Part shown: piece by piece, positions 15,147-62,256 of the stretch
How positions within the stretch are numbered: position 1 is the first letter of the stretch
Layout: every line of letters begins with the position of its first letter
NCBI GenBank assembly: GCA_021018995.1
Contig: CM037584.1
Span: forward strand, 174,858,317-174,922,316
Reading direction: 5' to 3'
Origin: Chloranthus sessilifolius
Lineage: Eukaryota; Streptophyta; Magnoliopsida; Chloranthales; Chloranthaceae
Length of the DNA stretch: 64,000 nucleotides
Translations under genes and position numbers: made by a program
Notes under the pieces: model-generated
Told to the model about the DNA's origin: nothing
Seen by the model: only the letters and a program-made list of their open reading frames with translations
The model's database searches: none

Positions 15147-15277
15147 TTGATGCATCGACCATTTTGGTCGATTAATCGAGGAGAAGGAGAGTCTGACACG
15201 GAATTGACTACTTTAAAGCTGATTTTGACCCTCTTTTGTAGGGTCGATGCATCGACCCTATTGGGTCGATTAATCGA
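15147..15277. promoter_or_regulatory. 12-bp palindrome cluster upstream of the LTR A TATA box
   Basis: TTGATGCATCGA at 15147, TCGATTAATCGA at 15168, TCGATGCATCGA at 15244 and TCGATTAATCGA at 15266. Spacing within the two pairs is 21 and 22 bp. The last palindrome ends about 40 bp before TATTTAAA (15319). Confidence 0.75.
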
Positions 15278-15318
15278 CCCTAAATTGGCGGCTGGGGAGA
15301 CTTCTGCGACCGGGAATC

Positions 15319-15326
15319 TATTTAAA
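15319..15326 (+). promoter_or_regulatory. Putative TATA box of LTR A
   Basis: TATTTAAA, about 560 bp into the LTR. The same motif occurs at 36333 in the 3' LTR. Confidence 0.5.
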
Positions 15327-21470: not shown

Positions 21471-21517
21471 ACAGGGTTGCCTCCTGTGAAGCGCCGAGTT
21501 TAAGTGTCGATACCGAC
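21470..21517 (-). other. Post-pol hairpin pair, element B
   Basis: On the minus strand, a GTCG...CGAC stem (21506-21517) is followed by CACAGG-AGGCAAC-CCTGTG (21470-21488). It is positioned just after the expected pol end and corresponds to the hairpins of A and C with the same AGGCAA loop. Confidence 0.6.
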
Positions 21518-21534
21518 CTCTTCATTGATCAAGA

Positions 21535-25217: not shown

Positions 25218-25579
25218 TCTAGATGGAGGAGTTAGGCATTGAGGGAATGGTGCCTTTGGGACATAAGGTGCATTCCATTTCCGATTTTTTTCACGCCCTT
25301 GTTGGACGGTTGAAGGAAACTCTTCCTCTAATACTTTTTCTTTCCTTTCTCTCTTCCTTGCTCTTGCACTTTTCTTATCTCGGCTCTTTGTCTCTTTCTT
25401 TCTCTTTCCTTTTCCTTTCTCCTTTCTTTTCTCCGATTCTTTTCCTCTATTGCTTCTCTTTCTTCATCGCCTTCTAGGCATTTCCACTTGATTATGAACC
25501 TCTCGTCCACTTCTCAAAGACCGTAATGACTTTCAACGCTGACTATTCGATGGTCCCGCTTCGAGATGGTGCTTGGCCT

Positions 25580-27170: not shown

Positions 27171-27364
27171 GATAAACAGTAGCCAATATCAGCAGGAAAG
27201 ATTTCTTCTTTTTTTTTTTTTTTTTTAATTAAAATTCAAATTTAAATTAATTTTTTTTTATTCAAATTAAAATTAAAATTAAAATTTAAATTAATTAATT
27301 AATTAATTAAATTTTTTTTTTTTTTAAATTCAAATTAAAATTTAAATTCGAATTTAAATTAATT

Positions 27365-27405
<41 letters not shown>

Positions 27406-27863
27406 CGAATTAAATTTTTAAATTTTTTTTTTAATTTTAATTTTTTTTTTTTTTTTTTATTAAATTCGAAAATTAAAAATTAAAATTGAAAATCCTATAA
27501 AATCTTTCCTAAAAGAGAAAAATAAGGAGAAGAATGAAAGATTCCTAAAAATCCTAAAACAAAAGTCCCACAAAAGTTAATGACTAAATTTAGAAAATCC
27601 TAAAAATATCTAAAAGAGGAAAATAAGGAAAAAGAGTCCTACCAAATCTAAAATAAGAAGTCCTAAAAATCTCTACTTCCTAAATTTCCTAAGGAAGGTA
27701 TCCTAAAAATCTAAACTTCCTAAAAAGACTCCACAAAATCTTATCAAAGAGAGAAAAATAAGGGAAATAAATTTTAATAATTATTATTTTTTTTTATTTT
27801 TATTTTTTTTAAACACTCAAAACAGAAAAATCCCTATCCGAATTAATCAAAATTTCACCGATT
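27171..27863 (-). repeat. Element B leader, AT-rich low complexity
   Basis: Long T runs and AATTAA/AAATTT repeats at about 27208-27480, then A-rich sequence with repeated TCCTAAAA phrases. No ORF. It lies between the primer-binding site and gag. Confidence 0.7.
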
Positions 27864-27881
27864 TCCCCGGCAGCGGCGCCA
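27864..27881 (-). other. Primer-binding site of element B (tRNA-Asp)
   Basis: On the minus strand, TGGCGCCGCTGCCGGGGA, one base different from the site of element A. Confidence 0.85.
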
Positions 27882-27887
27882 AAAACT

Positions 27888-29241
27888 TGATCGATTTAGA
27901 ATGTAACCCTTGCAAGTGCACAAGATCTATAATAGATGGCAAGAACGAGTGGTCGAACTAGGAAACGTGAATTTTAATTAATTCTTTTAGAGATTTTAAA
28001 AACATCCCTGAGGAAGTAGGAAAGGGCAGATTCAATTTTACCGGAAACTTAACGCACGTTTGCTAAATGCAGAGAAATAAGTTAATCTAAACAATTAATT
28101 CGATAAATCTACGAACAATATTAAAATGAGATCAAGGAATATGCTACTACCCCGATTCGACTTTTCTATCATTAAAACCCACGGTTCATTAAATCATCAT
28201 TCACACCATCATTCATCTAGAAAATGACTTGAAATAAAATATGATCATCAATCAAGATACCTATCTAAAACAATGACTGACTAACATTGCGGTATGAGTC
28301 ATGTAAAAAGCATAAGCGTATCTCATGATATTTAGATCACGACAATCGGACATAATCTCTACTAGATCGACTGCGAGGTCCGGATCTGATTATTGATACA
28401 AATATTTTCAATCACACAAACTTTGAGCAAAAGCGATTCCATGATAACAATAATAGGCGTGGTATTAATCATAAACATAGGTACTTATCCGGGATCGATC
28501 TTCCCGATTCATCGATGTAGCCGCCATCTTTGGTGTTTGATCTCCTTTTCTTTCAAAGTCATTCCTCTTTATTTCTTCCAAAAGATATTTGCAATTGTTT
28601 TCCTAAATACAATCTATGAATTTCTCGAGAAAAATAATGCAAATCCTAGGTACAATCTACCCTGAATAAACCCTAGAAGGAGAGAAGAAGACTTGAAAAG
28701 ATGAAGAAAATATTCCCCCAAAGTGAAGAGCCCTAAAAACTAAAAAGAAAGAATGAATAATATTCTAATTGCAAAAAAATAATAATCCCCCTAAGAAACT
28801 CGTGGCTTCCCTTTTTATAATAGCCTAACCCTAATACCTCTCTCGATTGACATCTAAGAGTAATTTTCGTGAATTCCCGCCTAGCTTTGCATCAGATACT
28901 GCCTCGGTATTTTGCTCATAACTTTCTGTACCGAACTCGGATTGAGGTGATTCTTGAGGCGTTGGAAAGCTGACGACGAGCTCTACAACTTTTATGTTTT
29001 AGCAATTTCCTGAATCTGACGTCTTGAAGGTCCAAATTGAGCTGCAAGTCGCACTAAGTTCTCAATGACCCAAAATAGCAGTGTTTTGACATTATTTTCG
29101 GGATTCTTGGGCTGTTTTAGAAACTTGGACTGTATTTACCTGAAACACTTCAAATCTAGCAAATCTCATCAGATAGCCTTCATCGGACGGCTAAATATAG
29201 GTATTTAGGGGTGAAATATCATCATATTTCACTACTCATCA
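27888..29241 (-). repeat. 5' LTR of element B
   Basis: Same ends as the copy at 18037. The part from about 28850 to 29080 looks identical between the two copies, while 27930-28400 has clustered small differences and a deletion of about 50 bp near 28390. Confidence 0.9.
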
Positions 29242-33633: not shown

Positions 33634-35795
33634 TGTGGAGTATCTGTGTGGGGTTTAGGTTTTATTTTATTTTATTTTTTTTCTCATGTTTATTTCTAGC
33701 ATTTTATTTTTTTAGTTTAGGTTGTTTTTTTTTTTAACTCCCTAAAATAGTGTAACCATATTCCCTTCAATAAATTTTTGGTCATGTTCCAATTTAATGC
33801 ACATATTCTCTGCACCTGATCTTTGTGTTGAGGTACTTTTTCAAACAGGTTTGGGGGTGCGCTACTTCTTTCAGTCAATGCGGACATTGTCATCTTTAGG
33901 TTTGGGGGTATGATTATCTATTTTACGTCACTTATTTTTCTATTAAAAAAAAATTTAGTTCTCGATCAATCGACTCAAAGGAGTCGATTGTTCGACCTAC
34001 CACTCGATCGTTTGAGTCGATTAATCGAGCGATTAATCAAAAAAAATTTGAAAAAAAAAGAAACGAAATTTTTTATCTTTGAAGTCATCATGCACATTAT
34101 TTTACGATTGTTTTCAAACTTTAGTTGATGATGCATGTGAATTTAATTTTGAGAATACTGATGTCATATTCTGATTACTTGTATCTAAGATGATGAAGCT
34201 TAATGTGATATTTTGTGGATAATTTTGATATTCATGCTTAGAATTTTTACACTTATACCAAGCTAAGACTTAGAAATCGATGAACTGTTTTGAATGTTGA
34301 ATCTTAGGTTCTTAGTGGAGACTAAACCCAGTGAGCTTTAGAGCTAATTTCTCGTCATTGATGAGTGAATACATAAACTCGGAGTTTTCTTTGAATACGA
34401 ATTACTTTGTATAATCTCATACATTTTATTTTGGCTTACGACTTTGCATGAAATCAAATTCATATCATTATGTTAGAATGTACTGTATATCTACTCAAGA
34501 CAAATAGGCAAGGTTACCATCTTTTAAGGATATGATTGAAGGCCATCTTTGGCTCGTTTGTGCTTAAAATATCTCACCTTATATAAATTTATCCTTCTAG
34601 TACCCCTTTGAGCCTATTGAAAAATTTATCTTTATACATTTTTTGATAAGCCACGTTAACCTTTAACCCATCACCATTTTTGAAAATTCAAGCTTTACCC
34701 TTCTTATTTCTGAGAAATTAGGAACGAGGGATGAGAGTGAACGAAAAGAGAGTAAGTGGAGAGTTACTGAGTTGTGGTATTTACTGAGAGTGTATGACAA
34801 AAATATAAAAGAAAAAGGGGGGAGAAAAAGAAAAAGAAAATTGTGAAAAATAATAAAAAATATGAGGTGCTTCAAGAAAAGGAAATTCAAAAGAAAAAGA
34901 AAGTTGAGAAAAATAGAAGAATATTGAGAAAAATAGTGAGAGATTAGAAAAGAAAAATAAGAGAAATAGAAAAATAAAAAAGGTGTTTCCTTTCCGATTT
35001 CTCAGAAATTTTGAATCCCAACTTCCCTTTTTTCTTACCCTTTCCTGAGCCCTATTACAACCCTACAAAAAGACCTTCATGATCTGATCTTGCATTGGTA
35101 ACTGCCTTGTGGAGAGTGAATATGTGATACTTATGACACTTGATATGACATGCTTAGGATATACAAGTATCTTCTTATGAGATTTATTTTTGTTCATTGA
35201 TTGCATCGTGTTTCATTTATCATGTGAGAACTTTTTATTTGCTTTGTATTGATCTTTCACATGTGGGCGAAAACTTACCCATCATCGGAGTGATTTTATT
35301 TTAAGAGTATACCTAAAGTGATGATTGAGTCTAAACAACAGGGCCGACGGTTTCTCGTTTGAACTAGTTCTGAGATGGATGAATTTTGGTTTGGGTATGC
35401 ACACACTTCACGTTTAAGCATGAATGGATGAGTTATCTAATGATTTGAGCATTAAACTAATTTGAATAGATGCTAGTATGATTAGTATAACATTGTTATT
35501 TAAAATTGAGGATTCGCATATTGAATTGATTAATGATTTTGAGTTTTGAATGGTATATATGTTATCAAAATCATATTTTGAAAACTCAATTTTATCGATG
35601 ATTTCAAAAATGTATTGAAGTTTGTGGGTAACTTCACTGTAAACCCTCAGGAGACACAACTCCTCCACTAGGGATCACCTAGGAGTTTAAAGGCTTGTTG
35701 CACATGCTAAGTGTAATCGTGTTCCCTACGAAAGTGGCATTTATTTTCTTTAGTTTGCTTTGCTCGAGGACTAGCAAAGTGTAGGTTTTGGGGTA
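33634..35795 (+). other. 3' noncoding region of element A
   Basis: No supported ORF. Holds a polypurine-like doublet (AGGTTTGGGGGT at 33847 and 33899), a palindrome cluster (33962-34028), and a terminal purine-rich tract (GTAGGTTTTGGGGTA, about 35780-35795) next to the 3' LTR, the expected plus-strand priming site. Confidence 0.75.
33962..34028. promoter_or_regulatory. 12-bp palindrome cluster, 3' region of A
   Basis: TCGATCAATCGA at 33962, TCGATTGTTCGA at 33984 (22 bp on), TCGATCGTTTGA at 34004 and TCGATTAATCGA at 34017. It lies just after the polypurine-like doublet, the place where element C has its own cluster of a different palindrome. Confidence 0.7.
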
Positions 35796-37546
35796 TGATG
35801 AGTACTGAAATATGATGATATTTCACCCCTAAATACTTATATTTAGCTGTCCGATGAAGGCTATCTGATGAGAATTATTAGATTTGAAGTGTTTCAGGTA
35901 AATACAAACCAAGTGTGGAAAACAGCCCAAGAATTCTGAAAATAATGTCAAAACACTGTAACTTTGGGTCATCGAGAACTTAGTGCGACTTGCGGCTATA
36001 GTTGGACCTTCAAGACGGCCGAATTATGAAATTGTCAAAACACAAAAGTTGTCGATCTTTTCGTCTGCTTTCCAACGGCGCAAGAGTCACCTCAATCCGA
36101 GTTTAGGACAGAAAGTTATGGCTAAAATACCAAAGTAGTGTCTGATATAAAAAGTGTGCTGAAATTCACGGATTTTTGGGGGTCGATGCATCGACCCTTT
36201 TGGTCGATTAATCGAGGAGAAGGAGAGTCTGATACAAAATTGATTACTTTAAAGCTGATTTTGAGCCTCTTTTGTAGGGTCGATGCATCGACCCTAAATT
36301 GGCGGCTGGGGAGACTTTTGCGACTGGGAATCTATTTAAAGTGACTCAAACACTTCGAGGGAGAATTAGAAATTAGGGAGATAGGAGATTAGAGTTTTAG
36401 TTTTTTACTTTTCTTTTTTATAGTTAGACATAGAAATAGGGAGTTTTTATTTATTCGTTTTTGAGTGCTTTGTTCCTTTAATTTCCAGTACTCATTCCTC
36501 CAGTTTATTATATTTTTGCTCAAGTTTATTTTTACATTATTCTCGTTTCTGAAGACCATCTCTTTTGAAGTTGAGGTATTTTTAATTCATTAAATTAATG
36601 TTATTTTCTCTTCCTTATTTATTTATATCATTTAATTGCAATATGTGTGGCTAAATTCATAAGGATGGGGATCTAATGATTTCCATCCGAGGGATGTACT
36701 TTTAATAATATAAATTTAGGATTAAAATATGAGATCTTATTTTATAGTTATTGTGCTATCAAGAACAGATGAAATCCCCGCCACTAATCGGGATCGCGTG
36801 TGCCGAGCCATGCCCGGGATCTCAGATCTGTGACGGTAATTTTATCCAATCATTGTTATATGATCTTTTTGCTTTCATCGTGTGGATCTAATTACGATTA
36901 TGATCCAGGATCGAGTGTGCCGAGCCATGCCCTGGATCTTGGATATGTAATAGTAATTTTATCTTAATTACTCCCTAATCTAAAATCGAGTGTGCCGAGC
37001 CATGCCCTTGATTTCAGATCTATGGTGGTATTATTGTTGAAAATTTTACCCACTTTGGGGATAATTTTTATTTAAACCTGAGATCAAGTGTGCCGAGCCA
37101 TGCCCTTGATCTCAGATTTATATATGAAAATCATCTAAGTCCTGATTGCAGGGATGCAACGTGGAACCTATCGGGGTTTTTGACCATTTATCTTCCATAA
37201 AAGATATTTGTTCTCAATGGTATATCTCATAGTTTAATCTGTAGATTTATATTATGGGAAGAACAGACCAAAGATGGGAGGATTTAGTATCTTTATCTTT
37301 ATCTTTATTTTTGAATCATCAATTAAGTTTTATTTTTGTAGTCAGTAATTATCATCTCATCAAACCACTTAAAGCATAAGACTGGTAGAATACTGTTAGA
37401 TCTTAGTGGATTTCTTGAATTATTGTCTTGTCTTTTTAGGTCTTTCAAAATTAGTCCTCGTGGGAACGATCTCGTACTCCGCACCCACTATATACAATTC
37501 GATTCGTGCACTTGCGAGTAAAATATCACAATTAAAATTCACATCA
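35796..37546 (+). repeat. 3' LTR of element A
   Basis: 1751 bp with the same termini as the 5' copy. Carries palindromes at 36183, 36204 and 36280 and the TATA-like TATTTAAA at 36333. Compared with the 5' LTR it lacks exactly one 22-bp palindrome unit after 36291. It keeps all four GTGTGCCGAGCCATGCCC repeats. Confidence 0.9.
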
Positions 37547-40237
37547 TAGACCATCGAGGGAACCGCAAAGGCGACTTAATCGAATATGCAAGAAGTAGTT
37601 TTAAAGGAAGTCATTAAACTTCTCGATGCTGGAATCATCTATCCGATCTCTGATAGTGAATGGGTAAGTCCAGTCCAAATCGTTCCGAAAAAGTCTGGAA
37701 TCACTGTGAAAGAAACTATTGAAGGAGAATTGGTCCCTACTCGCAAAATTACTGGGTGGCGTGTCTGCATTGATTATAAAAAATTGAACACAGCTATCAG
37801 AAAGGATCATTTTCCCCTTCCGTTCATTGATCAAATCCTTGAGAAGTTAGCAGGGCAAGAGTTTTATTGTTTTCTTGATGGTTATTCGGGATAGAATCAA
37901 GTTCCCTTTTTTCCACCTTATCAAGAGAAAACGACATTCACGTGTCCTTACGGTACTTTTGCATATCGAAGGATGCCGTTCGGCTTATGTAATGCTCCTG
38001 CTACTTTCCAACGATGTATGTTGAAAATATTTTTGGATATGATTGACAAATTCATCGAAGTCTTTATGGACGACTTCTCTGTTTTTGGGAAAACATTTGG
38101 TTCATGTTTGAATCACCTTTCACAAGTGCTGCAACGTTGTGTAGACTCAAAACTTGTTCTTAGCTGGGAGAAGAGCCATTTCATGGTTCAACAAGGAATT
38201 GTGCTGGGGCATATTGTTTCAAAGAAAGGAATTGAAGTTGATAAAGCCAAAGTCGATTTAATTGCTAATCTGCCACCCCCGAAGAGTGTTCGACAAATTC
38301 GATCATTTTTGGGTCATGCAGGATTTTATCGAAGATTCATCAAAGATTTTAGCAAGGTGGCTAAACCTTTGTGTACTTTGCTTGGCAAAGATGTTCCTTT
38401 TGACTTTGATGAGGATTGCATGAAAGCATTTCTGAAACTGCGCGAGCTCTTATCAAATGCACCAATAATCCAACCACCGGATTATTCTCTACCTTTCGAA
38501 CTTATGTGCGATGCATCTGATTACGCAATCGGAGCTGTCTTAGGGAAAAGGGTGAACAAACTACCTTACGTAATTTATTATGCCAGTAAGACATTGATCG
38601 ATGCTCAGCTTAACTACACCACCACTGAGAAAGAGTTGTTAGTTGTGGTGTATGCTCTCGATAAATTTCGATCTTATCTGCTTGGATAAAAAATAGTGGT
38701 CTTTTCAGACCACTCTGCATTGAAATATTTGTTGGCAAAGAAGGACGCCAAACCAAGATTGATCCGCTGGATCCTGCTACTTCAAGAGTTCAATTTTGAA
38801 ATCAAAGATAAAAAGGGAGTAGAGAATGTTGTGGTCGATCACTTGTCTCGCATTTTACCTGAAGAATCTTCTGCACCTGAACCTATCCGGGACACTTTTC
38901 CGGATGAGCAATTAATGGCAATTGATGCGACGGCTATGAAAGCTCCTTGGTTTGCCAATATTGTGAATTATCTGGTCACTAGCAGAATCCCTACTGAATG
39001 GGGTAAGAATGATAAGCATCTCTTTTTCTCCCAAATAAAATACTATTTTTGGGATGAACTACAATTGTTCAAAATCTGTTCAGATCAAATCATTAGGAGA
39101 TGTGTACCAGAGGAAGAGCAACTAAGTGTCCTCAATTTTTGCCATGCTGGAGCCTGTGGAGGTCATTTCGGAGGACAGAAGACCGCACAGAAAATCCTTC
39201 AAAGCGGATTCTACTGGCCCTCCATCTTTCGAGACGCTGCTCAATTTTGTAAAAAATGCCAACGATGTCAGCAGCTGGGAAATATTTCACGACGGAATAT
39301 GATGCCCCTTAATCCAATTTTAATTGTTAAAATTTTTTATGTTTGGGGGATCGACTTCATGGGTCCTTTTCCCCCATCTTGTGGGTATTCATACATTCTC
39401 GTGGCTGTTGACTACGTTTCCAAATGGATTGAAGCTGTGGCAACCCGTTCGAATGACCACAAAGTGGTGGTCAAATTTCTGAAGGAAAATGTCTTTAACA
39501 GATTCGGGTTTCCACGAGCGATCATTAGTGATGGCGGTTCGCACTTCTGCAACCGCCATTTTGCTACTTTAATGAAGAAATATGGCGTTACCCACAAGGT
39601 TGCAACGCCATATCACCCGCAAACTAGTGGTCAAGTGGAAGTGTCGAACCGGGAGATCAAACGAATTTTAGAAAAGACGGTACGTCCGGATAGACGAGAT
39701 TGGTCGAACCGGCTATCTGATGCTCTTTGGGCATATCGTACTGCATTTAAGACACCGATTGGAATGTCTCCGTTCAGAATTGTTTACGGGAAAGCCTGCC
39801 ATCTTCCTGTTGAATTAGAGCATATGGCATTTTGGGCTATCCAAAGATTCAATTTCGATATGCAAGCAGCAGGATCAACTAGACGGCTACAGTTGAATGA
39901 ATTGGAAGAACTACGCTACGATGCTTATGAAAATTCGAAAATGTACAAGGAACGGTACAAAAGGCTGCATGATGAGTCCATTTCTAGAAAGGAGTTTCAT
40001 GTTGGACAAAAAGTTTGGTTGTTCAATTCCAGACTTAAGCTCCATCTTGGGAAATTGAAATCGCAGTGGGAAGGACCCTTTCAGGTTGTCTCCACCACCG
40101 TACATGGTGCAATTGAGATTCGAAGCCTTCAGGACAACCGCGTGTTCAAAGTGAATGGGCAAAGACTCAAACCAATGTTTGAGCCGATCACCCAGTTTAA
40201 GATTGAGGCGATGCACCTCAGTGACCCAGATTATTGA
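37547..40237 (+). pseudogene. Element C pol, 3' part, two nonsense codons
   Basis: One continuous reading frame from the PSREPQRRLN-like segment before the reverse transcriptase to the integrase C-terminus. Reverse transcriptase: [16 protein letters not shown] and FMDDFS. RNase H: YAIGAVLGKR and TTEKELLVVVYALDKF. Integrase: [16 protein letters not shown] and GQVEVSNRE supply the D, D, E residues, with a chromodomain-free C-terminus ending SDPDY. Only two in-frame stops interrupt it, TAG at 37892 (tyrosine in the GYSGYNQ motif) and TAA at 38687 (serine after LLG). It is far better preserved than A or B. The 5' part is missing. Confidence 0.9.
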
Positions 40238-40248
40238 TCATTGAATAG

Positions 40249-40296
40249 GTCGAGCTGTTGACAATTAAACTCAGCGCTTCCTGGGAGGCAACCCAG
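40249..40296 (+). other. Post-pol hairpin pair, element C
   Basis: GTCGAGCTGTTGAC (40249-40262), with GTCGA/TTGAC pairing including one G-T pair, then CTGGG-AGGCAA-CCCAG (40281-40296). It starts 12 bases after the pol stop (40235-40237). The loop equals that of A and B while the stem bases differ in a paired way. Confidence 0.7.
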
Positions 40297-40364
40297 TGTG
40301 TTGATTTTCATTTTCGTCTTTAGTTTTGTCTTCATTTTTTTTTTGTATTAGAATTGAGTGTTTC

Positions 40365-40800
40365 TCAATCGATTGACTCTCACTTAGTCAATCGATTAAG
40401 ATTTCCCTCTCAATCGATTGAGAATTCAAGCATCATCATCATTTTCATCCTTCTGTTTCAATCGATTGACAATCTTGTGTCAATCGATTGAAAATACCTT
40501 TGGTTTTGTGCCAATTTTCGGAATTTGAAGCGCCATCCGACACATCTTGTCATGGCAGCTAACTTTCAGGGCACGAATTGTCTCAATCGATTGAGCCTCA
40601 CCTCTCAATCGATTGACTTAATGACGTATTAACTTCGTTTGTTTCCAAGGCACCTAACTGGTGCAGCTTTTCGAAAAAGGGTATGCTCAATCGATTGACA
40701 TTGAAAGAGGAGAAGTGGATTGTGCCACGTATCACGCGCATGCCCGATGACCTTCCATTTTCGTGCAACGTGGGCAGACCAACCATTCTCAATCGATTGA
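40365..40800. promoter_or_regulatory. TCAATCGATTGA array upstream of the 386-codon ORF
   Basis: Palindromes start at 40365, 40388 (one mismatch), 40410, 40458, 40480, 40583, 40605, 40687 and 40789. Within groups the start-to-start distance is 22 or 23 bp. The last ends three bases before a TATA-like tract at 40803. Confidence 0.85.
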
Positions 40801-40802
40801 GG

Positions 40803-40819
40803 TATATATTATAAAAGAG
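40803..40819 (+). promoter_or_regulatory. Putative TATA box for the 386-codon ORF
   Basis: TATATATTATAAAAGAG lies about 100 bp before the ATG at 40905, directly after the palindrome array. This arrangement suggests an internal promoter separate from the LTR. Confidence 0.5.
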
Positions 40820-40904
40820 AGCTCACAAGCCGTGGCTCCCTCATTCTGCCTCCTTTCAAAACCAATCCCCATCAAGCTCCTATATTCTCCTCATACGTGA
40901 TCAA

Positions 40905-42065
40905 ATGGCGGCGCCTGGCCCACCAATATTTCGTCCGCCACGTCCTGCCAACGATCCGATGCGCATCCCTAATGAGCTCTATTTCGATCGCCAATTCCAA
41001 ACAGAAAACTTCTTCGACCTCGCAAAATACCGTCGCATTGCGGAATGTGCCCGCTCGATCGAGTTCATCAAGGCCCTACGATTGGAGATGTTGCTTGCCC
41101 CACCGCCCATAGATTTCTCTCCGCACATCATTCGGCTATTTTATCAGAAAATGGTATGGGTACCGGAAACACTATCGCCAACTGGAATGCCCTACATTAC
41201 CATCGAGATCGACAACTGGCATTATAATCTGCATGCCACCGATCTCGCGCGTGCCTTCAATTTTTACGTGGTTCGACCTGTGCACCACCACATTAATCCG
41301 GCTATTGATCATAGTCAGGAAGACATGATCAATGATATGTGTGGAGGACGCCGCGGTACCGGTCAGGCTACTAAACGAGCCGTACTTCCGATGGACATTC
41401 TCTTTTGGGATATCGTCATGGCAAATAACCTCCTATCGCATGGCACGAAAACTGAGAGGACAAAGAATAGGGTAATTGCACTTTATGCTACGCATACAAA
41501 CACTTGGTTCGATGCGCCAGGTCTGATGCTCGAGGAGATGTATCGTTGTCACAGTGATATCGCCGGCACCGTCGTACTCGCAAAGCGTGCAGCGATTCTC
41601 CTCCATTTTCCACACTATGTGATGCACCTTTTGGATCACCTCGGCTGCCCCATTTACGATGATGAGGAGTTAGGTGACATGCAATTTTATCAGTATGGTG
41701 TCAATGTATGGGATAAGAGCATCAAAGTGATTCTTCGTGTGCACCCAGTCCCGATTGCAGTTGACGATGTACATCCTCCTCCCTGTCCAAACCCCGCACA
41801 ACGCCAACGTGGCGGTGTAAGACGACCTCGTCCCGAAGAGGTCCTTGATTTTGATGCCGAGGCAGCCGTTGCTCGCCTCGAGGCACGGATGGATGGGCTT
41901 AATGCGAGGCTTGGTGGTATTGATCGACGGTCCAGATTTCAGACTTCTCTCCTCATGCGAATGGCCCGGGAGTCGTTCCCCGGGCGTGTCGACGAATTCA
42001 TCGTAGGAGCGCGAGCGGCGATGAACGAGGAGAGGGAACCTGAGTATGATGATGATGATGTTTAG
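40905..42065 (+). CDS. Accessory ORF of element C, plant-transposon-type protein
   Basis: Intact 386-codon ORF downstream of pol, in the position where Athila elements may carry an envelope-like or other extra ORF. Residues about 45-250 (FSPHIIRLFYQKM; LPMDILFWDIVMANNLLSHG; a FPHYVMHLLDHLGCP block) resemble the family often labelled putative plant transposon protein or Athila ORF1-like, of unknown function. I see no signal peptide or membrane span, so an envelope role is not supported. Residues about 317-365 look like a coiled coil (LEARMDGLNARLGGIDRR) and the tail is acidic (EYDDDDV), which would suit a dimer. Base composition is clearly more GC-rich than its surroundings. A palindrome array and TATA-like tract precede it. 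The family match is from memory and uncertain; openness and codon character are seen directly. Confidence 0.72.
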   Translation: MAAPGPPIFRPPRPANDPMRIPNELYFDRQFQTENFFDLAKYRRIAECARSIEFIKALRLEMLLAPPPIDFSPHIIRLFYQKMVWVPETLSPTGMPYITIEIDNWHYNLHATDLARAFNFYVVRPVHHHINPAIDHSQEDMINDMCGGRRGTGQATKRAVLPMDILFWDIVMANNLLSHGTKTERTKNRVIALYATHTNTWFDAPGLMLEEMYRCHSDIAGTVVLAKRAAILLHFPHYVMHLLDHLGCPIYDDEELGDMQFYQYGVNVWDKSIKVILRVHPVPIAVDDVHPPPCPNPAQRQRGGVRRPRPEEVLDFDAEAAVARLEARMDGLNARLGGIDRRSRFQTSLLMRMARESFPGRVDEFIVGARAAMNEEREPEYDDDDV

Positions 42066-42297
42066 TTTGTTTTTGTGTAGTTTTCTTTATTTTTATGTTT
42101 AGTGTTTAGTGTGTGGTGCTATGTTTTGTTTAGTGTTCTCAGTTGTTTAGGGTGTTTTTAATTTTTATTTTTTTGTTAAAATCTACTAGTGGTGTAGGGA
42201 TCGATGGTGTAATCAATCAAGACCAATCAATGGAATTAGCTTTTCTTTTTGTGTTCATTTTTATGGTACTTATCGGTTTTGTGCACAAGTGCATCAG

Positions 42298-42613
42298 TCA
42301 ATCCATTGAGGCTTCACTCTCAATCGATTGAGCACTTTACTTATGATATTCTGAAAAGCAATTCCTCTGAGTCAATCGATTGAGACACTTTTCTCAATCG
42401 ATTGATTCCTGAATCCGAAAAGATAAACAAATTGCACATTTAAGTCAATCGATTGACACTCAATTGTCAATCGACTGATTTCTACATGGTCAAACTTTCA
42501 ACCTGACACGTTTCTGAAAATAAATCATGTTGAGAGTGGATTTTGTGTCGTGCACCATCATCCTATGTTTACATATGTGCCAATCGATTGACACTAAACT
42601 GTCAATCGATTGA
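42298..42613. promoter_or_regulatory. TCAATCGATTGA array upstream of the 113-codon ORF
   Basis: Four pairs, each 22 bp start to start: 42298/42320, 42372/42394, 42445/42467 and 42580/42602. Single-base variants occur in the first members at 42298 and 42580 and in the second at 42467. It is followed by a TATA-like TATTTAAG at 42728 and the ORF at 42794. Confidence 0.85.
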
Positions 42614-42727
42614 CTGATGCCTAATTCCTGAAATTCACACCGACCCGTCCGAAAATAGAATTCTTTTTTCTTTAGAGTCCGTTTTGTACAAGGTTTCTTA
42701 GGGTCCATCTTTTAGGAGGTTTTTCTC

Positions 42728-42735
42728 TATTTAAG
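42728..42735 (+). promoter_or_regulatory. Putative TATA box for the 113-codon ORF
   Basis: TATTTAAG, 66 bp upstream of the ATG at 42794. The 5' leader would be very short (about 30 bases), so the call is tentative. Confidence 0.35.
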
Positions 42736-42793
42736 GGTTTATTAGTGTCCTTTTAAGTCATACTATTCCTCCTCCTTCCCCAAAGTTTCCACC

Positions 42794-43135
42794 ATGTCTT
42801 CCATCCGGTATTGTACCCGATCTGCCGTGAAAAAGCTGACGGAGCCCGCGCGCAAACGTGCACGTTATCACACTCCGCCGCCACCACTCGACTTGTCCAA
42901 TCACTCCGTCATCGATCTTGATGATGAATTCCCAGTTGAAGACAACTCTATTTTCACGCGCTCCGCCGAGGCCGCTTACGCACCCTTTCCGCCTCTCGTA
43001 CCATCACATCCTACCCCACCATTATCACCACCCCGTGCACCAGTACCACCTGCTGGCGAGTGTGGAATCACCGAGGAGATGTGGCACTACGCGTTTCTAA
43101 AGCCGCGGGAAGACAGTTCCCCCATGGAAGACTAG
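42794..43135 (+). CDS. Small proline-rich ORF with NLS-like motif, element C
   Basis: Intact 113-codon ORF, with its ATG in a good context (CCACCATGTC). A basic stretch at residues 14-24 (KKLTEPARKRAR) looks like a bipartite nuclear localisation signal. Residues about 28-34 and 65-88 are proline-rich, and acidic patches (DLDDEFPVED) lie between. The sequence is GC-rich compared with the noncoding DNA on both sides, like the 386-codon ORF. I do not recognise the family. A nuclear regulatory or adaptor protein is a guess from composition. It might instead be the tail exon or remnant of a longer accessory protein. Confidence 0.55.
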   Translation: MSSIRYCTRSAVKKLTEPARKRARYHTPPPPLDLSNHSVIDLDDEFPVEDNSIFTRSAEAAYAPFPPLVPSHPTPPLSPPRAPVPPAGECGITEEMWHYAFLKPREDSSPMED

Positions 43136-45246
43136 AGGAATAGGATTTTCTGTTTTAGGGTCTAGTTTTCGGAGTCTTTAGGTTGTATTTACTTTTTATG
43201 TTTTAGTTTAGGTTTGATTTTGATTAATTTTAAGGTAGAATTTTAATTTTGCACTATTTGTAAGAGTTTTTTTTTCAATACGAATTTCTTTAGGTAAATA
43301 TTTGTGTTTTTCTTTTTGATCACCTTCTCTTTCACTTGATCTAGTTCTTCTTTTTGGTCCTCTAAGTGCATCAAACAGGTTTGGGGGGGGGTCTCCCCTC
43401 CTATTTCAACATCTTCACTAATGAGGGCATTGGACAGTTCAGGTTTGGGGGGGTAATTTCAGTAATTTTCACAAATTTCCAATTTTATTTTTTTTTAAAA
43501 AAAGGCTGTTTTTCGGACCTTGAAATCTTATTAGTCAATCGATTGAGGTTGTGGTCTCAATCGATTGACTGCTAACCATTAAAAAATTCAATTGGAAATT
43601 GTCAACAATCAATCGATTGAGGCACTGGTCTCAATCGATTGACTGATGACAGGAAGGCTAATGAAATTCGATTTTTTTTATATTCTTAAATTATGAATGA
43701 CCTGAATTTCTTTAAAGATTGTTATCATACCATGATTATTTTTATGAATGTTCATAAAGTTCAAAATTAAAATAGCGATATTCATGATCTATGCCTGAAA
43801 TTTGTACACCACCACTTGGCGTCAATTCCAAGCTTGAGAATTAAGTGTATGATGTGAATTTTTTTTAGATCACAAGAAAGGCTTCAACCCAGTGAGTTTT
43901 GAAACCTTATCTTCGTTCTTGATGAGTGTGAAAATAAATTCGGAGTATCTTTGGATTCCTGCTTCAATTGTTAACATCTCATTTATTTTACTTTGATTTG
44001 TTGATTACACGTGTGGCATACCATTACACTAGAAATCAATGTGTATTAACTCAAAGCTGATAGGCATATTTTACTATAATGAAAGGAAATGATCCAAGGC
44101 CATCTTTGGCTCGTTTTTGCTTAAAATAACCCACCTCATAAATATATCATTCTAGCACCCCTTTGAGCCTATTGGAAAATTTGCCTTTATACATTCTTCG
44201 ATAAGCCACATTAACCTTTAACCCTTCACCATTTCTGAAAGTTCAGCTTAACCCTTCTTATTTCTGAGAAATTAGAAACGAGGGATGAAAATGAGTGAAA
44301 AGAGAGTACGTGGAGAGATACTGAGTTGTGGTGTTTACTAAGGGTGTATGGCAAAAATATAAAAGAAAAGGGGGAAAAAAAAAAAGAGAAAGAAAATAAA
44401 AAAATAAAATAAAATTAAAAAAAAAAAAAAAGGGAGATAGAGAAATCAGAAGTTTGTTTCTTTTCCAATTTCTCAGAAATTTTGAATCCAAATTCCCTTT
44501 CTTTCTTAACCTTTACCCGAGCCCTAGTACAACCTTAGAAAAGACCTTTTTGATCCAATCATGAGTGCTAAATGTCTTGTGGAGAGTGATTACACAGTGT
44601 CTATGGTGCTTGGTATATCCATGTTTAAAATACAAATATCTTTCTTAATGAGATTTCTTTTAAAATTCTTTGATACACCGTCTTTCGTATAAATTGTGAG
44701 ATTTTTCTAAAGTGCATTGTAACTCCATCTCACATGTGCGTAAAAAATAAAATCCATTCATCAGGAGTGATTTCATTCTGAGTGTATATCCATGATAAGG
44801 ATTGAGTCTAGACATGCGATCAAAAGATGCCTGGTTTAAGCTTCTTCTCAGGCCAAAGAATTTGAGCAGTGATGATTGCATAACATTAAGGCATAAAGAA
44901 TGAGCATTGAAAAACAAAGGACTGAATTGAATGAGCATTAATAAAATAAACATGGTCAGATGCATTTTAAAAGATTTTCCAGGGACATTTAACTGTTTAA
45001 GAGCAAGACTAAAAATTCTGAAATTCATAAGCTTTGTAGTTTGTGGGTAACTTCACTGTAAACCCTTAGGAGACAACTCCTCCACTAGGGGTCACCTTGG
45101 GGTTTAAAGGCTTGTTGCATGTGCTAAATGCAATCGTGTTCCCTACGAAAGTGGCATTTAAATTTTTAGGATGTTAGTTTTATTTGCGTTTTATAAGTTT
45201 ATCATTCTCTTTGCTCGAGGACTAGCAAAGTGTAGGTTAGGGGGTG
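43136..45246 (+). other. 3' noncoding region of element C
   Basis: No supported ORF. Contains polypurine-like tracts AGGTTTGGGGGGGGG near 43378 and AGGTTTGGGGGGGT at 43441, four palindromes at 43535-43642, T/A-rich runs near 44370-44430 (complement of the T-rich run in B), and a terminal purine-rich tract (GTAGGTTAGGGGGTG) against the LTR. Confidence 0.75.
43535..43642. promoter_or_regulatory. TCAATCGATTGA pairs, 3' region of C
   Basis: Perfect palindromes at 43535/43557 and 43609/43631, each pair 22 bp start to start. Confidence 0.9.
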
Positions 45247-45495
45247 TGATCGGTGCTGAAATATGACTATATTTCACACTTTAAATCCTACATTTAGTTG
45301 TTCGATGAAAGCATCTGATGGTTGTTGTGAGATTTTGATGTTTACAGATGTTTTTGACCGTTAGATCATTCAAGCGCATAAAAGAAGAAAATTAAAGGCT
45401 ACAAAAGAGCTAAGGACAAAAAGGTCCAAAAAAGCATTGAAAGCCGTGAAGAGAATCAACTTCCATCAAGAAAGGGAAGACTTTGCATTGAAGAA

Positions 45496-45669
45496 TCAAT
45501 CGATTGAGGCATTATTGTTAATCGATTGACAGATGGAGTAAAACTCAACCCTAGCAAATCAATCGATTGATTTGATGAAAATCAATCGATTGACACATAA
45601 AGGCAAAAGTGTCCTAAAGAAATTCAAACTCAAAATCAATCGATTGAGACTTCTGTCTCAATCGATTGA
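45496..45669. promoter_or_regulatory. TCAATCGATTGA pairs in LTR C
   Basis: Pairs at 45496/45518 (22 bp), 45559/45582 (23 bp) and 45636/45658 (22 bp). The last ends 29 bp before the TATA box. Confidence 0.9.
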
Positions 45670-45698
45670 GGCAATTAGGTTTAGGTGTGGTCGGCCAT

Positions 45699-45706
45699 TA
45701 TAAAAA
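45699..45706 (+). promoter_or_regulatory. TATA box of LTR C
   Basis: TATAAAAA directly downstream of the palindrome pairs. Confidence 0.6.
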
Positions 45707-46860
45707 GGAAGCTAAGGCTTTGTAAAAGGTAGTTGTTTTTGGGAGGACTTTTAGAGAGGAATTATTTTTTGCAATTTTAGGCTCTTTACTTTGGGGGAAT
45801 TTAGAGAACTTCTTTTCATCTTTGGAAGGGTCGTCTTCTTTCCTTCTTCTAGGGTTTCATCAGGGTAGATTGTACCTAGGTTTTGCATTATTTTTCTTTG
45901 AGAAAATCATAGATTGTATTTAGGAAAAACAATTTTAAAAAGACATTTTGGGAAGAAATAAAAAGAGGAATGGCTTTGAATGAACAAGGAGATCGTACAC
46001 CAAAGATGAGCGGCTAAATCAGTAGATCGGGGAAGATGCGATCCCCATATAAGTACCCTTATTTATGATTAATACCATAGTCGATTTATTGTCATCATGG
46101 AATTGTTTTGCTAAAAGTTTGTGTTATTGAAAATATATTGAATGCTTGTTATGACCGTTGATTGCGCGTATCAATGGCCGTAATTGCTAGATCTGGACCT
46201 GCAGGCTGATCTAGGCTGTAGAGCGATTATATTTTTATTGTTGTGATCTAAACATCATGAGATACGCTATGCTTCTTACATGACTCATACCGCGATGATA
46301 GGCTAAGTCATTGTTTTTAGATAGGGTATGCCGGATTGATAATCATATTTTATTTCGAATCATCTCCATAGACGAATGATGGTGTGAATGATGCTTTAAT
46401 GAAACTGTCGATTTTAATGGTAGAAAAGGGGTACAAATCTGGGGTAGCATATTCCTTGATCTAATTTAATTATTCTTTTAGATTCAGTGGTAATTAGTTG
46501 TTTAGATTAATTTATTTTTCTTGCATTTAGGAAAAGTGTGATAAATTTTGGTAAAATTGAATCTGCCCTTTGGTACTTCCTTGGGGACGTTTTTAAATCT
46601 CTGAAAGAATTAATTAAAATTCACGTTTCCCTGTGGGTTCGACACCTTTGTTCTTGCCATACTGCAATAGATCTTGTGCACTTGCAAGGGTTACATTTAA
46701 AATACACCAAAGCTCTCTTTTAGTTTTTAGTTTTTATAATAAAAGTTTGTATATTTTATTTTGTGTTTTAGTCGGATTGCTCTTTGCATGCATTAACCAT
46801 TTGTGCATCTCTTCTCTTTTATTTTCTTTTTCGTCACCATTCTTCCCCCAATTCTGTAAT

Positions 46861-46876: not shown

Positions 46877-47067
46877 TCCGGCTAAACCCGTGGTAATTCC
46901 ATATGGGGGGTAGGAGACGTCGAAATAGTAGGAAACAGTGACCGGTTGTCATGTCTGCTATGGATCTGCAGGCGGACTAATGTTCATCGTCTTCCCTGGT
47001 TCTCATGTTACTGTGATTATCTCTCTGCACATGAAAGACTATTCATCGTCTTCTCTAATTTTCAAGA

Positions 47068-47222
47068 TTGCTATTGCCCTTTTAGTAATTACTATTGCCC
47101 TTCTAGGAATTGCTATTGCCCTTCTGAGAATTGCTATTACCCTTCCAGGAATTGCTATTGCCCTTCCAGGAACTGCTATTGCCCTTCTATGAATTGCTAT
47201 TGCCCTTCTCAAGCAACTATTG
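47068..47222. repeat. 21-bp tandem repeat in the leader
   Basis: About seven or eight units of GCTATTGCCCTTCYAGGAATT. The period of 21 bp keeps frames open on both strands, which explains several spurious ORFs here, including a minus-strand one with a seven-residue repeat. Confidence 0.85.
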
Positions 47223-47515
47223 CCCTTTTTAGATGACTCTCGCATTATGATATTATTAACTTTTCCAAGATTCTTAGAAGGATAAATAGGAGGATCTGCT
47301 TGTTACTATTGGGTGTTATCGTGGTGAAAAGTCGCGTTGGGTAGTATGGCGATATGCAGTGAGTGCGAGATGCCGAGATAAATCCCACAAATCGTTGACT
47401 GACGCAGATAGAGAAAACACTATTTGGTAGTTATTTGGCAGATCTAACTATTTATTATTTTTAAGAATTTAGGAAAAGAACATAATTAGTGACCTTTGAG
47501 AAGATTCCAGAAAGA

Positions 47516-47898: not shown

Positions 47899-48942
47899 AT
47901 GTCTTTATTTGGATTTAATTCTTCAAAAAAAAAATTAATTAAAATTTCTGAATTAGTCAAATGGGCTAATATCAAAGAAAAATTAGATAAATGGACAATA
48001 CCTCCTATCAATCCAAAAATCTTATACAAATCTGAATGGACAAATTGGTCCACAGATATGTCTATCAAAACCACTGAGCAAACCCTCAGTGTTGGTGAAG
48101 ATCAAGAAGGTCTTCAGCTCTTATGAAATGAAGATCTTATCACAGATCTTAAAACCTTCAATTATCTCCATCTTGCCTGCATTCAGGTAGCCTTCAAACC
48201 TCTTACCCTTTTGGGGAACAATAATAGAATTATGACCACCTTAAGAGATGCAAGATGCCTTGATTGGTATTCTTCTCTCATTGCAGCTGTTGAAACCAGT
48301 CTTTGTCATGGTCCTATATACTTTAATGTTTTTCCCAATTTAACCTTATCTTTAACAGACAAGAATCTGTTATCTGCTTGTACTCTTAATCTACATACCC
48401 AAGGGTACAATTTTATGCCTGGATCAGAGACCATTGCTCTGATCTATAGACTTCATTATAAAGTCATGACCTCTTTGGCTTTTAAAGGCAATTACCAAAG
48501 CCCTCCTGGCCAAACGATTTTAATCGAAACCAATTTGACCACTTCCAAAATTGCCACTCCTTTGATTTCATGGGAAAAAATTGATTTTCCAGAATCATGG
48601 AAAATTACTCAAGCTGTACCTCCTAAACCAATCATTAATAAGGAAATTGAACAAATCGTTCAACAAGACAATGGTGATGTAATATTACAATTTGGTAAAT
48701 TTACATCTCCTACTTATCATACTAGACGATCTTATTCTGGTTCGAGTTCTAGAGACCCTTATAAGGTATCTCTCTCTTCAACCACTAGATCTTCTATGTC
48801 AGAAATAGCTTCTTCAGCTATTCCTGATGTCAATTTTGAAGGAATTCATGTATCTGCACAACAGACACCTCATGGGCTATATACCCAGCAGCAGAGGGAA
48901 TCTCCCACTGCAAGTGAGATGAATTTACAAATAATTAGTTAA
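47899..48942 (+). pseudogene. Viral movement-protein-like gene, one nonsense codon
   Basis: A single frame interrupted by one TGA (48124-48126). The central part (GPIYFNVFPNLTLSLTD, then CTLNLHTQGYNFMPGSETI) has the character of the 30K-superfamily movement proteins of plant pararetroviruses, with the conserved aspartate after the LTLSL strand. Such proteins enlarge plasmodesmata for cell-to-cell spread. The C-terminus is S/R-rich and likely disordered. The next ORF starts with an ATG overlapping the stop (TAATG), an arrangement known from caulimovirids. Assignment is by motif only, and the genus is not decided. Confidence 0.68.
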
Positions 48943-49978
48943 TGGCATTTTTTAGTTCAAATTCATATTATAAACCAGTCCCATGGACTAATATCTTCAA
49001 CAAATCCATTACTGGGCAAATTCCCAGCAATACCCAAATTCAACCACAGGTAGGTCTTAAGCAATTACTAGAACCACCTGTCATCACAACATCAAAAGAT
49101 TTTACAATCAATCGTTCTGAAATTAATATTGAGTTTCAGCAAGAAAAATATAAACCTTTTCAAGATTGGTATTTCAAAACATTTACTAGTCAAGAATTAT
49201 TAAAATTTAAAGAAAGTTTCTATTAATTTATAGAAATTTCTCATATAGTTATTCCTTTTGTCCAATGGTTCCAATGTTACCATAAAGATAAATATCTTAA
49301 AGAACAATCCAATATGACTTCTGTTCAAATATCCTCTGATAATATTCCTATAACAGAAGTTTCCGATCAAAATACTGATCCAACGATAATTTTAAGCCCT
49401 ATTGTTCCTTCTGAAACTCAGCCAGATCAGGAACAAGGTTTACCTATTAATGATCAGGTTCAAATTACACAGCACATTCAACCACCTCTATCCATTGATA
49501 TTTTAGATGAATACACATCTCAAAAGAAATCTTTGAGTGAATTAGAAGTAATCTCTTCTGAATCCATTCAGGAAAACATCTGTGAATTCCCAACTAGTCA
49601 AGACACTAGTATTCCCCAATTAACTCCAACTCAATTTGATTATATCAAACAATTATTATTTATATTGTTACTAAAATCCAAAGTATCTTTTAGTCACAAT
49701 ACCAAACCAGATCCTTTCACATCAAATCAATTAATCCTGAAAGGAAATAATCCTCTCAGCTTTTCTCATAAAGCTCATCAATCACCTTCGTTTTTATTGC
49801 AAACAACTTTTCCTTCAAGGATCCGAAAGCTTATCCCATGCAGCAAATTGCTCATTCCACAATCACATCAATTTTATGACAAAGATCCCAGACTTATTCT
49901 GTCTTCTTTTGATTTCTTATACTTATCCTATACTCCAATCATCACAAATCCTAATCTAGGATCTTATAGCATCCTAAT
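48942..49978 (+). pseudogene. Second caulimovirid-like ORF, truncated
   Basis: Same frame from 48942 to the element D junction, with one in-frame TAA at 49224-49226. The N-terminal part (WTNIFNKSI; FQDWYFKTF) and a long S/T/P/Q-rich linker suggest the start of a larger structural polyprotein, but I see no zinc finger, protease or polymerase before the truncation. Function unassigned. Confidence 0.5.
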
Positions 49979-52538
49979 TGTAATATCCTGAAAAATCACG
50001 TTAAACAGTGACCTAGAGATCCGTGCCCGATTGGTCACAGATTTGACCAATTAGGAGTTCAATAGTTAGCATAGAATGTGATGAACGGATGAGATGTGAT
50101 AAATTGATTGGCTGTGTGGTGTGTGATGAAAATGTGAAGTCACATACACCTATCACGGTGCATGTGCTCAACACACAAGTGAGAGGAGAGATAAAAGGGT
50201 TTAATAACCCTAAATTGCATGTCTTGGGTTGTTGAGAGAGAAGTAAAGAAGAGAGAGAGAGGAGTAAAGAAGGGTTGAGCAAGGAATTATTGTGAGTGAT
50301 TGGAAGGGGGATTCAAACATTAAAAAGACCGATTCAACGCGAAGGATCCGTTCAAGCCAAAGCTGGAACCCTAGCCTTTCCAACCACTTGATTGACATCA
50401 ATTTGAGATTTATTGAAGGTAAAATTCTTGTAGTTTAAATGCATAGATTGAAAGGTTAGATTGTTGTTAGAAATGGGTTAAAGTATAGAATAAAGGCCTA
50501 GAAAAATGGAGGAAAAAAAAATAAGGGAAGAGATTGGGAAGAACAGCCAAAAGGGGGTTGAATCTGGCTATTTCGATTAATCGAAAATGAGTCCGATTAA
50601 TCAATTTTGGCCAAGAAGTTGAAAAGTCAGAGGACCTCGATCTCGATTAAGCGAATTAAGTTTCGATTAATCGACTTTGAATTTCGATTAATCGAATTGG
50701 GTATCGATTAATCGACTGGGAGCCTACAGTGAACTCCAGTGAAGAAAAGAAAAAAGCTTGGAGAAATAGACTAATCGAAATGAGAGTTCGATTAATCGAT
50801 TTAGAATTTCGATTAATCGATTTGGGATCGATTAATCGATTTTGGAAACTTGATTACTCGAATTGAGAATCGACTGGATAGAATAGAGAAATTAGATTAA
50901 TCGAATGGGAATTCGATTAATCGAATGAGAATCTTGATTAATCGATTTGAGAATCGATTAATCGATATTGAATTTCGATTAATCGATTTTGGAAATCGAT
51001 TAATCGAATCAGATTCGATTAATCGATTTTAGAGTTTGATTAATCGATTGTGCCAGTTTATGTTGACTTTTGAGTTTGAATTTAAGATTCTTGGAGGGTC
51101 TTGGACCTTCTTTATTACATCTTTAGTGATATATTCTACATGTTATGTGGTACCATAGGTGGTATGTGTGAGCTTCGGCACAAGGAGCCACGTGGGACCT
51201 TGATGCATGATCAAACAAAGACTTGAGGTAGGGAACACCTTGAACATGTACTTTATTTTGCAAGAGCATGTATGTAGTGATATAGAATTTCATTCAAAAT
51301 ATTTTATTGCTTAAGAGTTTGTGAAATGTGTGTGTGTGACATCAATAAGAGTAATTATAATGAGTCATCCCCAGGGGATGAGGAAGTAAAGAGATAAGAG
51401 CATCAGGTGTGATGCAAGTGAATAAATACATCCCAGGGATGTATCCAAGATTGAATCATGTTTGATAGGGCCTAACTGATATAAGATAGCACACTTACAC
51501 GGTGAATAACTATATGTAAAGCACCTGATATTTTTGTTATTTGAGGTTTGATAGGGTACCCCACCGACGTGGCAGGATATCCACGACTGATACAGCAGGA
51601 TATCCGTGACCGATACGACGGCGAAACCGTAGGCCAGTGCGGAGGCTTATCCGTACACAGTAAGCACACCCCAGGGGTATTGAGTTGAGACAAGTGAAAT
51701 CCCGCCACCAATCCCCAGGGGAAAGGGGCTTGGGTACTATTTGTATTCCCATGGAATACTTTTAAAACTGTCTATATAGATGACGATGATGGGTATCTCA
51801 TCGGGGCTCGATGCTATATTGCTCGGGGATTACTTAAGTTGAAAGTTTAAGTTTGCTTTAGGCCTTTTCAGCATCATTCATGAATAAGTAAAAGACATGA
51901 GTAAACTACCAATAAGAATGTGATTCTTTTCAACTATTTTTCATCAGTAACTGCATAGATACATCATGCATGACATATCATGGAATATATGTGAGTGGTA
52001 ATTTATATGTTCAACTGTGTTCTGTTCCTTATTGAGCTAGGATGTAGCTCACTCTTTAGACTATACGTCGCAGGTCCACTAATAGCAGCTGCCGAGGCTT
52101 CAGGAGACGTTGACCCCGGTGAGTGAGACCTTGCACCTAGAGACGAGTTGGAGCCACCTCCTTAGGACTTCTTCTAGAGGACTCTGTTGTGCAGCTTTGA
52201 GAGTTTTGAGAGATTTTTGTACGGCTTGGTATGTCAAGCCTTGTTTTGATTAAACAATGTATATATATATAGATTTGGGATAATTCTTTTGGGCGAACCA
52301 TCTGTGATGATTAGCTATCATCGATGGTTCGAATCGGTTCTCCGTTCATGTAGAGGCATGAGGGTAGAACTGTATTTTGTGAAATGCTTATATAGTAATT
52401 TAATTTCGCAGCTTCATTTACTATTTCAATTCAATTCATTGCTTGATATACCAATGTTCCATGCATAGCTAAGGGGCACGGTCAAGATGATCATGCTGAT
52501 GGCACGAGTTTTGGGGTGCCAAAATTCGGGCTGTCACA
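49979..52538 (+). repeat. 5' LTR of element D (Ty3, Tekay/Del-like)
   Basis: Starts TGTAATATCCTGAAAAATC and ends GGGCTGTCACA, directly followed by a primer-binding site. 2560 bp. Contains a long palindrome array (50573-51047). Interrupts the caulimovirid-like ORF. Confidence 0.85.
50573..51047. promoter_or_regulatory. TCGATTAATCGA array in LTR D
   Basis: About 20 exact or near copies. Starts include 50573, 50593, 50643, 50663, 50684, 50704, then 50768, 50788, 50809, 50828, 50850, 50870, 50893, 50913, 50934, 50954, 50975, 50996, 51015 and 51036. Steps are 19-23 bp, mostly 20-21, that is, two turns of B-DNA. Linkers are unrelated except for length. Confidence 0.9.
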
Positions 52539-62192: not shown

Positions 62193-62256
62193 AATGCCAT
62201 ATCTGGAGTTTTACAACTCCGTTTCGCGCATATGACCTATCAATTTTGATCTACTC
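62193..62256 (+). repeat. Leader fragment between the duplicated gag-pol copies
   Basis: AAAATGCCATATCTGGAG... matches 59400-59458 of the leader, then jumps to coding sequence at 62257 (matching 60781). Confidence 0.85.

Follow-up and report, generated by a model that had tools for sequence, protein, structure and literature searches.

The palindromes of element C, a retrotransposon in a 64,000-nucleotide window of Chloranthus sessilifolius (contig CM037584.1), are probably cis-regulatory sites for a dimeric protein, forming an enhancer in U3 of the long terminal repeat (LTR) and arrays of internal promoters; judging from sequence, a probability of about 0.6 is assigned to this reading. Elements and arrays are compared within this window, and its studied part consists mostly of nested retrotransposons (plant DNA). 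The 12-bp motif TCAATCGATTGA occurs 27 times in element C (40365-45669), 22 times exactly and five times with one mismatch, and most copies stand in pairs whose starts are 22 bp apart. How plant LTR retrotransposons are activated and how their post-pol genes are expressed are largely open questions; element C has TATA-like boxes next to its palindromes in the LTR and twice in its interior, and the spacing is readily testable. The element adjoins another, element A, and consists of a part of pol, two additional open reading frames (ORF386 and ORF113), a 3′ untranslated part and one LTR, in that order; its left part is missing and it starts at 37547, inside pol. Its features are as follows.

37547..40237, plus strand: surviving part of pol (part of the reverse transcriptase, RNase H and integrase), from Pfam and homology to pol of elements A and B
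40365..40800: cluster 1, nine palindromes starting at 40365, 40388, 40410, 40458, 40480, 40583, 40605, 40687 and 40789
40803..40817, plus strand: TATA-like sequence TATATATTATAAAAG, 3 bp past the last palindrome of cluster 1
40905..42065, plus strand: ORF386, an additional ORF after pol
42298..42613: cluster 2, eight palindromes in four 22-bp pairs
42727..42735, plus strand: TATA-like sequence CTATTTAAG, upstream of ORF113
42794..43135, plus strand: ORF113, small, basic and proline-rich
43535..43642: cluster 3, within the 3′ untranslated part, two pairs at 22 bp
45247..46709, plus strand: 3′ LTR, from homology to the LTRs of elements A and B, with ends set by eye
45496..45669: cluster 4, six palindromes in U3 (pairs at 22, 23 and 22 bp)
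45699..45705, plus strand: LTR TATA-like box TATAAAA, 30 bp after cluster 4

The initial annotation, made from the sequence alone, had counted about 27 copies in the noncoding parts of element C and none in its ORFs, and this count stands: none of the 27 sites falls inside the three coding stretches (pol, ORF386 and ORF113), which together occupy 46% of 37547-46709. The ten 22-bp pairs that it listed are all correct, an eleventh (40388/40410) had been overlooked, and two other neighbours are indeed 23 bp apart (40365/40388 and 45559/45582); these are all 13 intervals of up to 30 bp in the element. Equal numbers of sites were scattered randomly over the spans of the four clusters in 20,000 trials, each of which yielded between zero and five intervals of 22 bp save one, which yielded seven, compared with the eleven observed. 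The only unpaired sites are 40687 and 40789, both exact copies, and the central CG is kept in 26 of the 27 copies. Outside element C the window has no exact copy. If two mismatches are tolerated, the whole window contains 41 matches (27 in element C and 14 elsewhere), as against a mean of 6.86 (standard deviation 2.61, largest 12) in 100 shuffled windows.

According to the proposed mechanism, each 12-mer would bind one symmetric protein dimer, and the 22-bp pair, which is 2.1 turns at 10.5 bp, would set two dimers about two helical turns apart near the same face of the DNA, where they could bind together. A homodimer is suggested because the self-symmetric 12-mer recurs almost unchanged in differing surroundings. 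The array in the LTR would serve as a U3 enhancer for the LTR promoter, and the internal arrays would act as upstream elements for internal promoters, one for ORF386 and another for ORF113. The binding protein would more likely be a plant host factor than a product of the element, because similar arrays occur in elements where ORF386 and ORF113 were not found. The protein itself, joint binding and transcription from the internal sites are all what we infer from this arrangement. HD-Zip proteins, whose sites are CAATNATTG, were considered as binders and set aside, as the literature matches listed did not point to ATCGAT-centred pairs; no protein is named.

The positions of the clusters relative to TATA-like sequences are consistent with a promoter function. 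Six plus-strand places in 37547-46701 match TATA-like patterns that were picked after inspection of the sequence, and three of the six sit 3-115 bp past a cluster, preceding ORF386, ORF113 and the LTR start region. TATATATTATAAAAG lies approximately 90 bp upstream of the ORF386 start codon ATG, and the distance from the end of cluster 2 to TATTTAA within CTATTTAAG is approximately 115 bp. Seventeen palindrome copies are upstream of ORF386 or ORF113, to neither of which Pfam gives an env-like identity. ORF386 is unlikely to have arisen by chance, because its stop-free run is 416 amino acids whereas the longest in 300 simulations of the region is 248 amino acids. The guanine-plus-cytosine (GC) content is 0.51 in ORF386 and 0.56 in ORF113.

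The spacing rule extends beyond element C, because element A and an LTR-like stretch near 50 kb have other palindromes at 19-22 bp. This emerged from an unbiased scan for every perfect 12-bp palindrome containing CG in the window, with no sequence preselected, which found 47 such palindromes compared with 4.05 expected from 60 first-order simulations (standard deviation 1.9, largest 9). Sixteen pairs of adjacent palindromes are spaced by 40 bp or less, all of them by 19-23 bp, and another seven by 41-54 bp; adjacent spacings of 19-23 bp are absent from the 60 simulations. Element C, element A (with TCGATGCATCGA and TCGATTAATCGA) and an array of TCGATTAATCGA supply the 16 close spacings. The arrays outside element C are as follows.

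15147..15280: palindromes in the 5′ LTR of element A, the same pair as in the 3′ LTR plus a second pair at 22 bp
33962..34040: palindromes in the 3′ untranslated part of element A, TCGATCAATCGA and TCGATTGTTCGA 22 bp apart with more sites at 34017 and 34029, in roughly the place that cluster 3 has in element C
36180..36296: palindromes in the 3′ LTR of element A, TCGATGCATCGA at 36183 and TCGATTAATCGA at 36204, 21 bp apart, plus TAGGGTCGATGCATCGACCCTA
50573..51047: array of 19 TCGATTAATCGA sites (up to two mismatches), 15 of the 18 intervals being 19-22 bp

The last array lies in a stretch (49979-52538) that may be read as the LTR of an unrelated element, its limits being inferred and a single LTR being seen; a gag frame (PF03732) is located downstream. 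Similar spacing with other palindromes in other elements argues that the spacing itself matters. A broader proposal can be made only tentatively, and is rather doubtful: separate lineages of plant LTR retrotransposons may share an enhancer grammar of 12-bp palindromes with TCGAT/ATCGA half-sites, 19-23 bp apart, bound by one family of dimeric host proteins, in which the palindrome drifts while the spacing is held and internal copies act as promoters for accessory genes. Spacing common to several elements would give a simple search rule for plant regulatory arrays.

Element A has exactly one more 22-bp palindrome unit in its 5′ LTR than in its 3′ LTR (15239-15282 compared with 36275-36296); therefore, units can be gained or lost whole and the length of an array can change. 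The same difference would be expected if the pairs had no function and were spread by short duplications, with symmetry kept by template-switch correction of quasi-palindromes. The linkers are also consistent with such descent in part: the eleven 10-bp linkers of element C share a mean of 4.6 of 10 bases where composition predicts 2.7, and blastn in some cases aligns U3 with the internal clusters over two units (up to 108 bp at 72%). However, the excess likeness is mainly at the linker ends, the inner six bases being near chance (2.15 shared, 1.79 expected). The earlier statement that linker sequences vary while their length is held is accurate, apart from a constraint on the two outermost bases at each end. 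Neither the similar spacing with different palindromes in three elements, nor the TATA-adjacent positions, nor the absence from coding stretches is accounted for by the lack of a function, which is quite unlikely. Duplication of a large U3 block into the internal region was rejected, because the strong blastn matches all cover palindrome units and the two longest, of 108 bp (72%) and 89 bp (70%), extend across two units.

The constraint on the linker ends is one of complementarity. Of the 13 pairs of element C, 12 have complementary bases at the two ends of the linker (permutation p 0.0004) and eight at the next positions inwards (p 0.013), where four more have G-T combinations; the permutation assumes independent pairs even though some linkers are alike, possibly through common descent. 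Complementarity is at chance at the third linker position, in the outer flanks of the pairs, and in the flanks of single sites (10 of 27). In element A, the linker ends of the four listed pairs, two of which are one pair present in both LTRs, are complementary too; in the 50-kb array the corresponding counts, 8 of 15 and 6 of 15, are not clear. Such a pattern recalls the other suggestion of the initial annotation, that a paired unit could fold as a hairpin in RNA; here the stem would be about 14 bp and the loop about 6 bases long, and the hairpin would act either in RNA, as a structure or a small-RNA trigger, or as extruded DNA. RNA folding of seven of the 13 pairs gave a stable hairpin in every case (-13.6 to -23.9 kcal/mol), unmatched by any shuffled version, although a stable hairpin is expected of any inverted repeat. 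In the element A pair 33962/33984, one arm contains CA where the other contains TG, so that these bases match between the arms and not within an arm, and there is one other mismatch between the arms; together with the linker ends, this pair is the best evidence for a hairpin. The palindrome-rich LTR regions of Sireviruses are, moreover, small-RNA hot spots according to later work cited in the available parts of PMC10760457 and PMC5311732.

Nevertheless, a hairpin is an unlikely explanation of the pairs. It has no need of arms that are copies of one self-palindromic 12-mer, both unpaired sites of element C are exact, and among the five substituted sites none has a matching Watson-Crick change in its partner and one has a G-T combination. 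The linker ends of the 50-kb array are complementary in just over half of the pairs, and the pairs in the LTRs of element A combine palindromes that differ from each other and do not pair at their centres. If the unit were a hairpin with identical arms, there would be no reason for a two-turn spacing to recur in element A and the 50-kb LTR, where the palindromes are different, and it is this recurrence that makes two dimers on one face of the helix, as originally proposed, the best reading of the pairs on present sequence evidence, despite the complementary linker ends in element C.

Several observations weigh against the regulatory interpretation. Independent dimer sites would give no reason for complementary linker ends, and the helical phase of the unit-to-unit distances in element C is marginal (R 0.56, p approximately 0.045 at 10.5 bp). 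No plus-strand TATA-like match directly follows cluster 3, and a minus-strand match at 43682 would place cluster 3 downstream of that box. In element A, intervals of 21, 22 and 22 bp (up to two mismatches) are accompanied by one of 33 bp and by an overlapping pair at 12 bp. No second LTR or further copy of element C was seen in the window. The initial annotation had staked the pairing on an excess of 22-bp spacing in other copies of the family, and the outcome is divided: element A shows the spacing, whereas element B has no palindrome array and only two CG palindromes of other kinds. As element B is related in pol and LTR, the array is not required in every member.

The closest case known to us in which a transposon protein binds short noncoding motifs of its own element is that of the VANC motifs of VANDALs, which are not LTR retrotransposons. 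By analogy, the palindromes of element C could be the target of its own ORF386 or ORF113 protein, which would lift silencing. As described in the available part of PMC5735166, the VANC21 motifs are likewise confined to noncoding sequence, are short and repeated, differ between related elements and are bound by the VANC protein of the element itself; the word "palindrom" is absent from that text. Element C also has the most sites among elements A, B and C, it has two additional ORFs without a tblastn match elsewhere in the window, and a basic stretch of ORF113, read by eye, could be a nuclear localisation signal. That very lack of relatives in the window argues the other way as well, since element A and the 50-kb LTR have arrays of like spacing. 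No DNA-binding family was found by Pfam for either protein, ORF386 matching PF20167 weakly (Putative plant transposon protein; 22.3 bits against a cut-off of 45) and ORF113 matching nothing, and at E 0.001 no homologue of either emerged from the 4,171 and 9 candidates scored, respectively. No solved structure matches ORF386 by sequence at E 1, and the structure that AlphaFold predicts for it without an alignment is of too low a quality for use (predicted local distance difference test score 34.5). Recognition by a protein of the element is thus improbable.

Palindromic motifs with a comparable distribution are known from Sireviruses. In the available text of Bousios et al. 2010 (PMC2829016), 13 Sireviruses are described with palindromic repeated motifs (RMs) in 8 to 32 copies, located in the LTR U3 upstream of TATA and, where env is present, upstream of env, which follows 77 of the 79 RM copies in the linker; the RMs are proposed to be regulatory, and an internal env promoter is suggested that was not conclusively identified. 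The palindromes of element C occupy the same two places, LTR U3 and internal, and the RM of Tnd-1, ACAATCGATTGT, shares with the element C motif the 10-bp core CAATCGATTG (PMC2829016, as available). The claim of the initial annotation that no such system had been described therefore holds for the 22-bp pair, of which no description was found among the literature matches listed, and not for the motifs, since Sirevirus RMs are of the same kind. Twelve of the 13 RMs have a CGG-CCG core, which TCAATCGATTGA, like the Tnd-1 motif, lacks, and the same text calls the RM absent from classic retrotransposons (PMC2829016, as available). Where at least eight dyad-symmetric copies define a Sirevirus RM, element C has 27 (22 exact), and its LTR cluster at 45496-45669 is upstream of the box at 45699, as in Sireviruses. 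The CpG islands of Sirevirus clusters have no counterpart in element C, in which the clusters have a CpG observed/expected ratio of 0.98-1.20 and a GC content of 0.34-0.42, the usual limit for a CpG island being a GC content of 0.5. Compared with the RMs of Sireviruses, which are Ty1/copia elements, what differs here is the occurrence in an element of Ty3 gene order, the fixed two-turn pairing, of which the RM section of PMC2829016 in its available form makes no mention, and the TATA-like boxes beside the internal copies.

Long stretches with additional ORFs between pol and the LTR are also known from Athila, Grande and Retand, and the accessory gene of Grande has its own promoter, according to the available parts of PMC7264820 and PMC11963269. 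In place of palindrome pairs, the same sources report env-like ORFs in the sense orientation, tandem repeats of 8-100 bp for Retand and, for Grande, an antisense promoter. No description of such pairs in Ty3 elements was found among the literature matches listed, which mostly leave out subscription literature, and the word "palindrom" is absent from the available part of a study of plant LTR motifs (PMC11656987).

Pairs of TCAATCGATTGA with gaps of 0-30 had no match in viral_contigs and 23 prokaryote loci in genome_contigs. Nine of these (L006, L007, L009, L013, L014, L018, L020, L022 and L023, from Methylomonas, Methylovulum and records labelled Methylococcaceae) are spaced by 27 bp from start to start and two by 22 bp; they look unrelated to the plant pairs and were rejected as relatives, the 27-bp pairs of the Methylococcaceae type possibly being a bacterial operator that is separate from the plant case. 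Pairs of TCGATTAATCGA were present in one viral contig, at a spacing of 25. Searches of viral_contigs with integrase and ORF386 patterns matched 3 and 17 stretches, respectively, with no relative confirmed.

Element C is, from its predicted domains, a Ty3/gypsy-type retrotransposon: its pol matches RVT_1, RT_RNaseH, Integrase_H2C2 and rve in Pfam, and the order of reverse transcriptase, RNase H and integrase is the Ty3 order. Every integrase candidate scored was a relative (7,957), and the named matches among the 120 listed are plant proteins, some labelled Ty3-I Gag-Pol. Elements A, B and C are presumably Athila-like. The purine-rich sequence GGTTAGGGGG precedes the 3′ LTR of element C. The related elements of the window are as follows.

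14760-37546: element A, from LTR homology
14760-16548: 5′ LTR of element A, from homology
35796-37546: 3′ LTR of element A, from homology
18037-29241, minus strand: element B, nested inside element A

The LTRs of element A are 92% identical to each other, and TGGCGCCGTTGCCGGGG, just after the 5′ LTR, may be read as a primer-binding site. GCAGC flanks element B on each side. The flanks of element A (14745-14759 and 37547-37560) lack matching target-site duplications, and given this and the abrupt start of element C inside pol, a rearrangement seems likely from the sequence. In the stretch before the 3′ LTR (34097-35743 and 44083-45244), the parts of elements A, B and C match at approximately 75-90% identity, which locally exceeds the identity of pol (70-82%), yet there is no clear sense ORF.

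Between element C and the 50-kb LTR, a short tandem repeat (47067-47227) has a unit of approximately 21 bp, one frame of which is a repeated seven-residue peptide. It is followed on the plus strand by broken frames (47899-49991) that match a viral movement protein (PF01107, E 1.4e-15) and, under the cut-off of that family, DUF7588; this region looks like a fragment of an endogenous plant pararetrovirus, and the stretch read as the LTR with the 50-kb array begins after it, at 49979. Further along, a Ty1/copia-type stretch with gag-pre-integrase and integrase domains is present as a tandem duplicate (60779-62187 and 62255-63662) with 97.8% identity.

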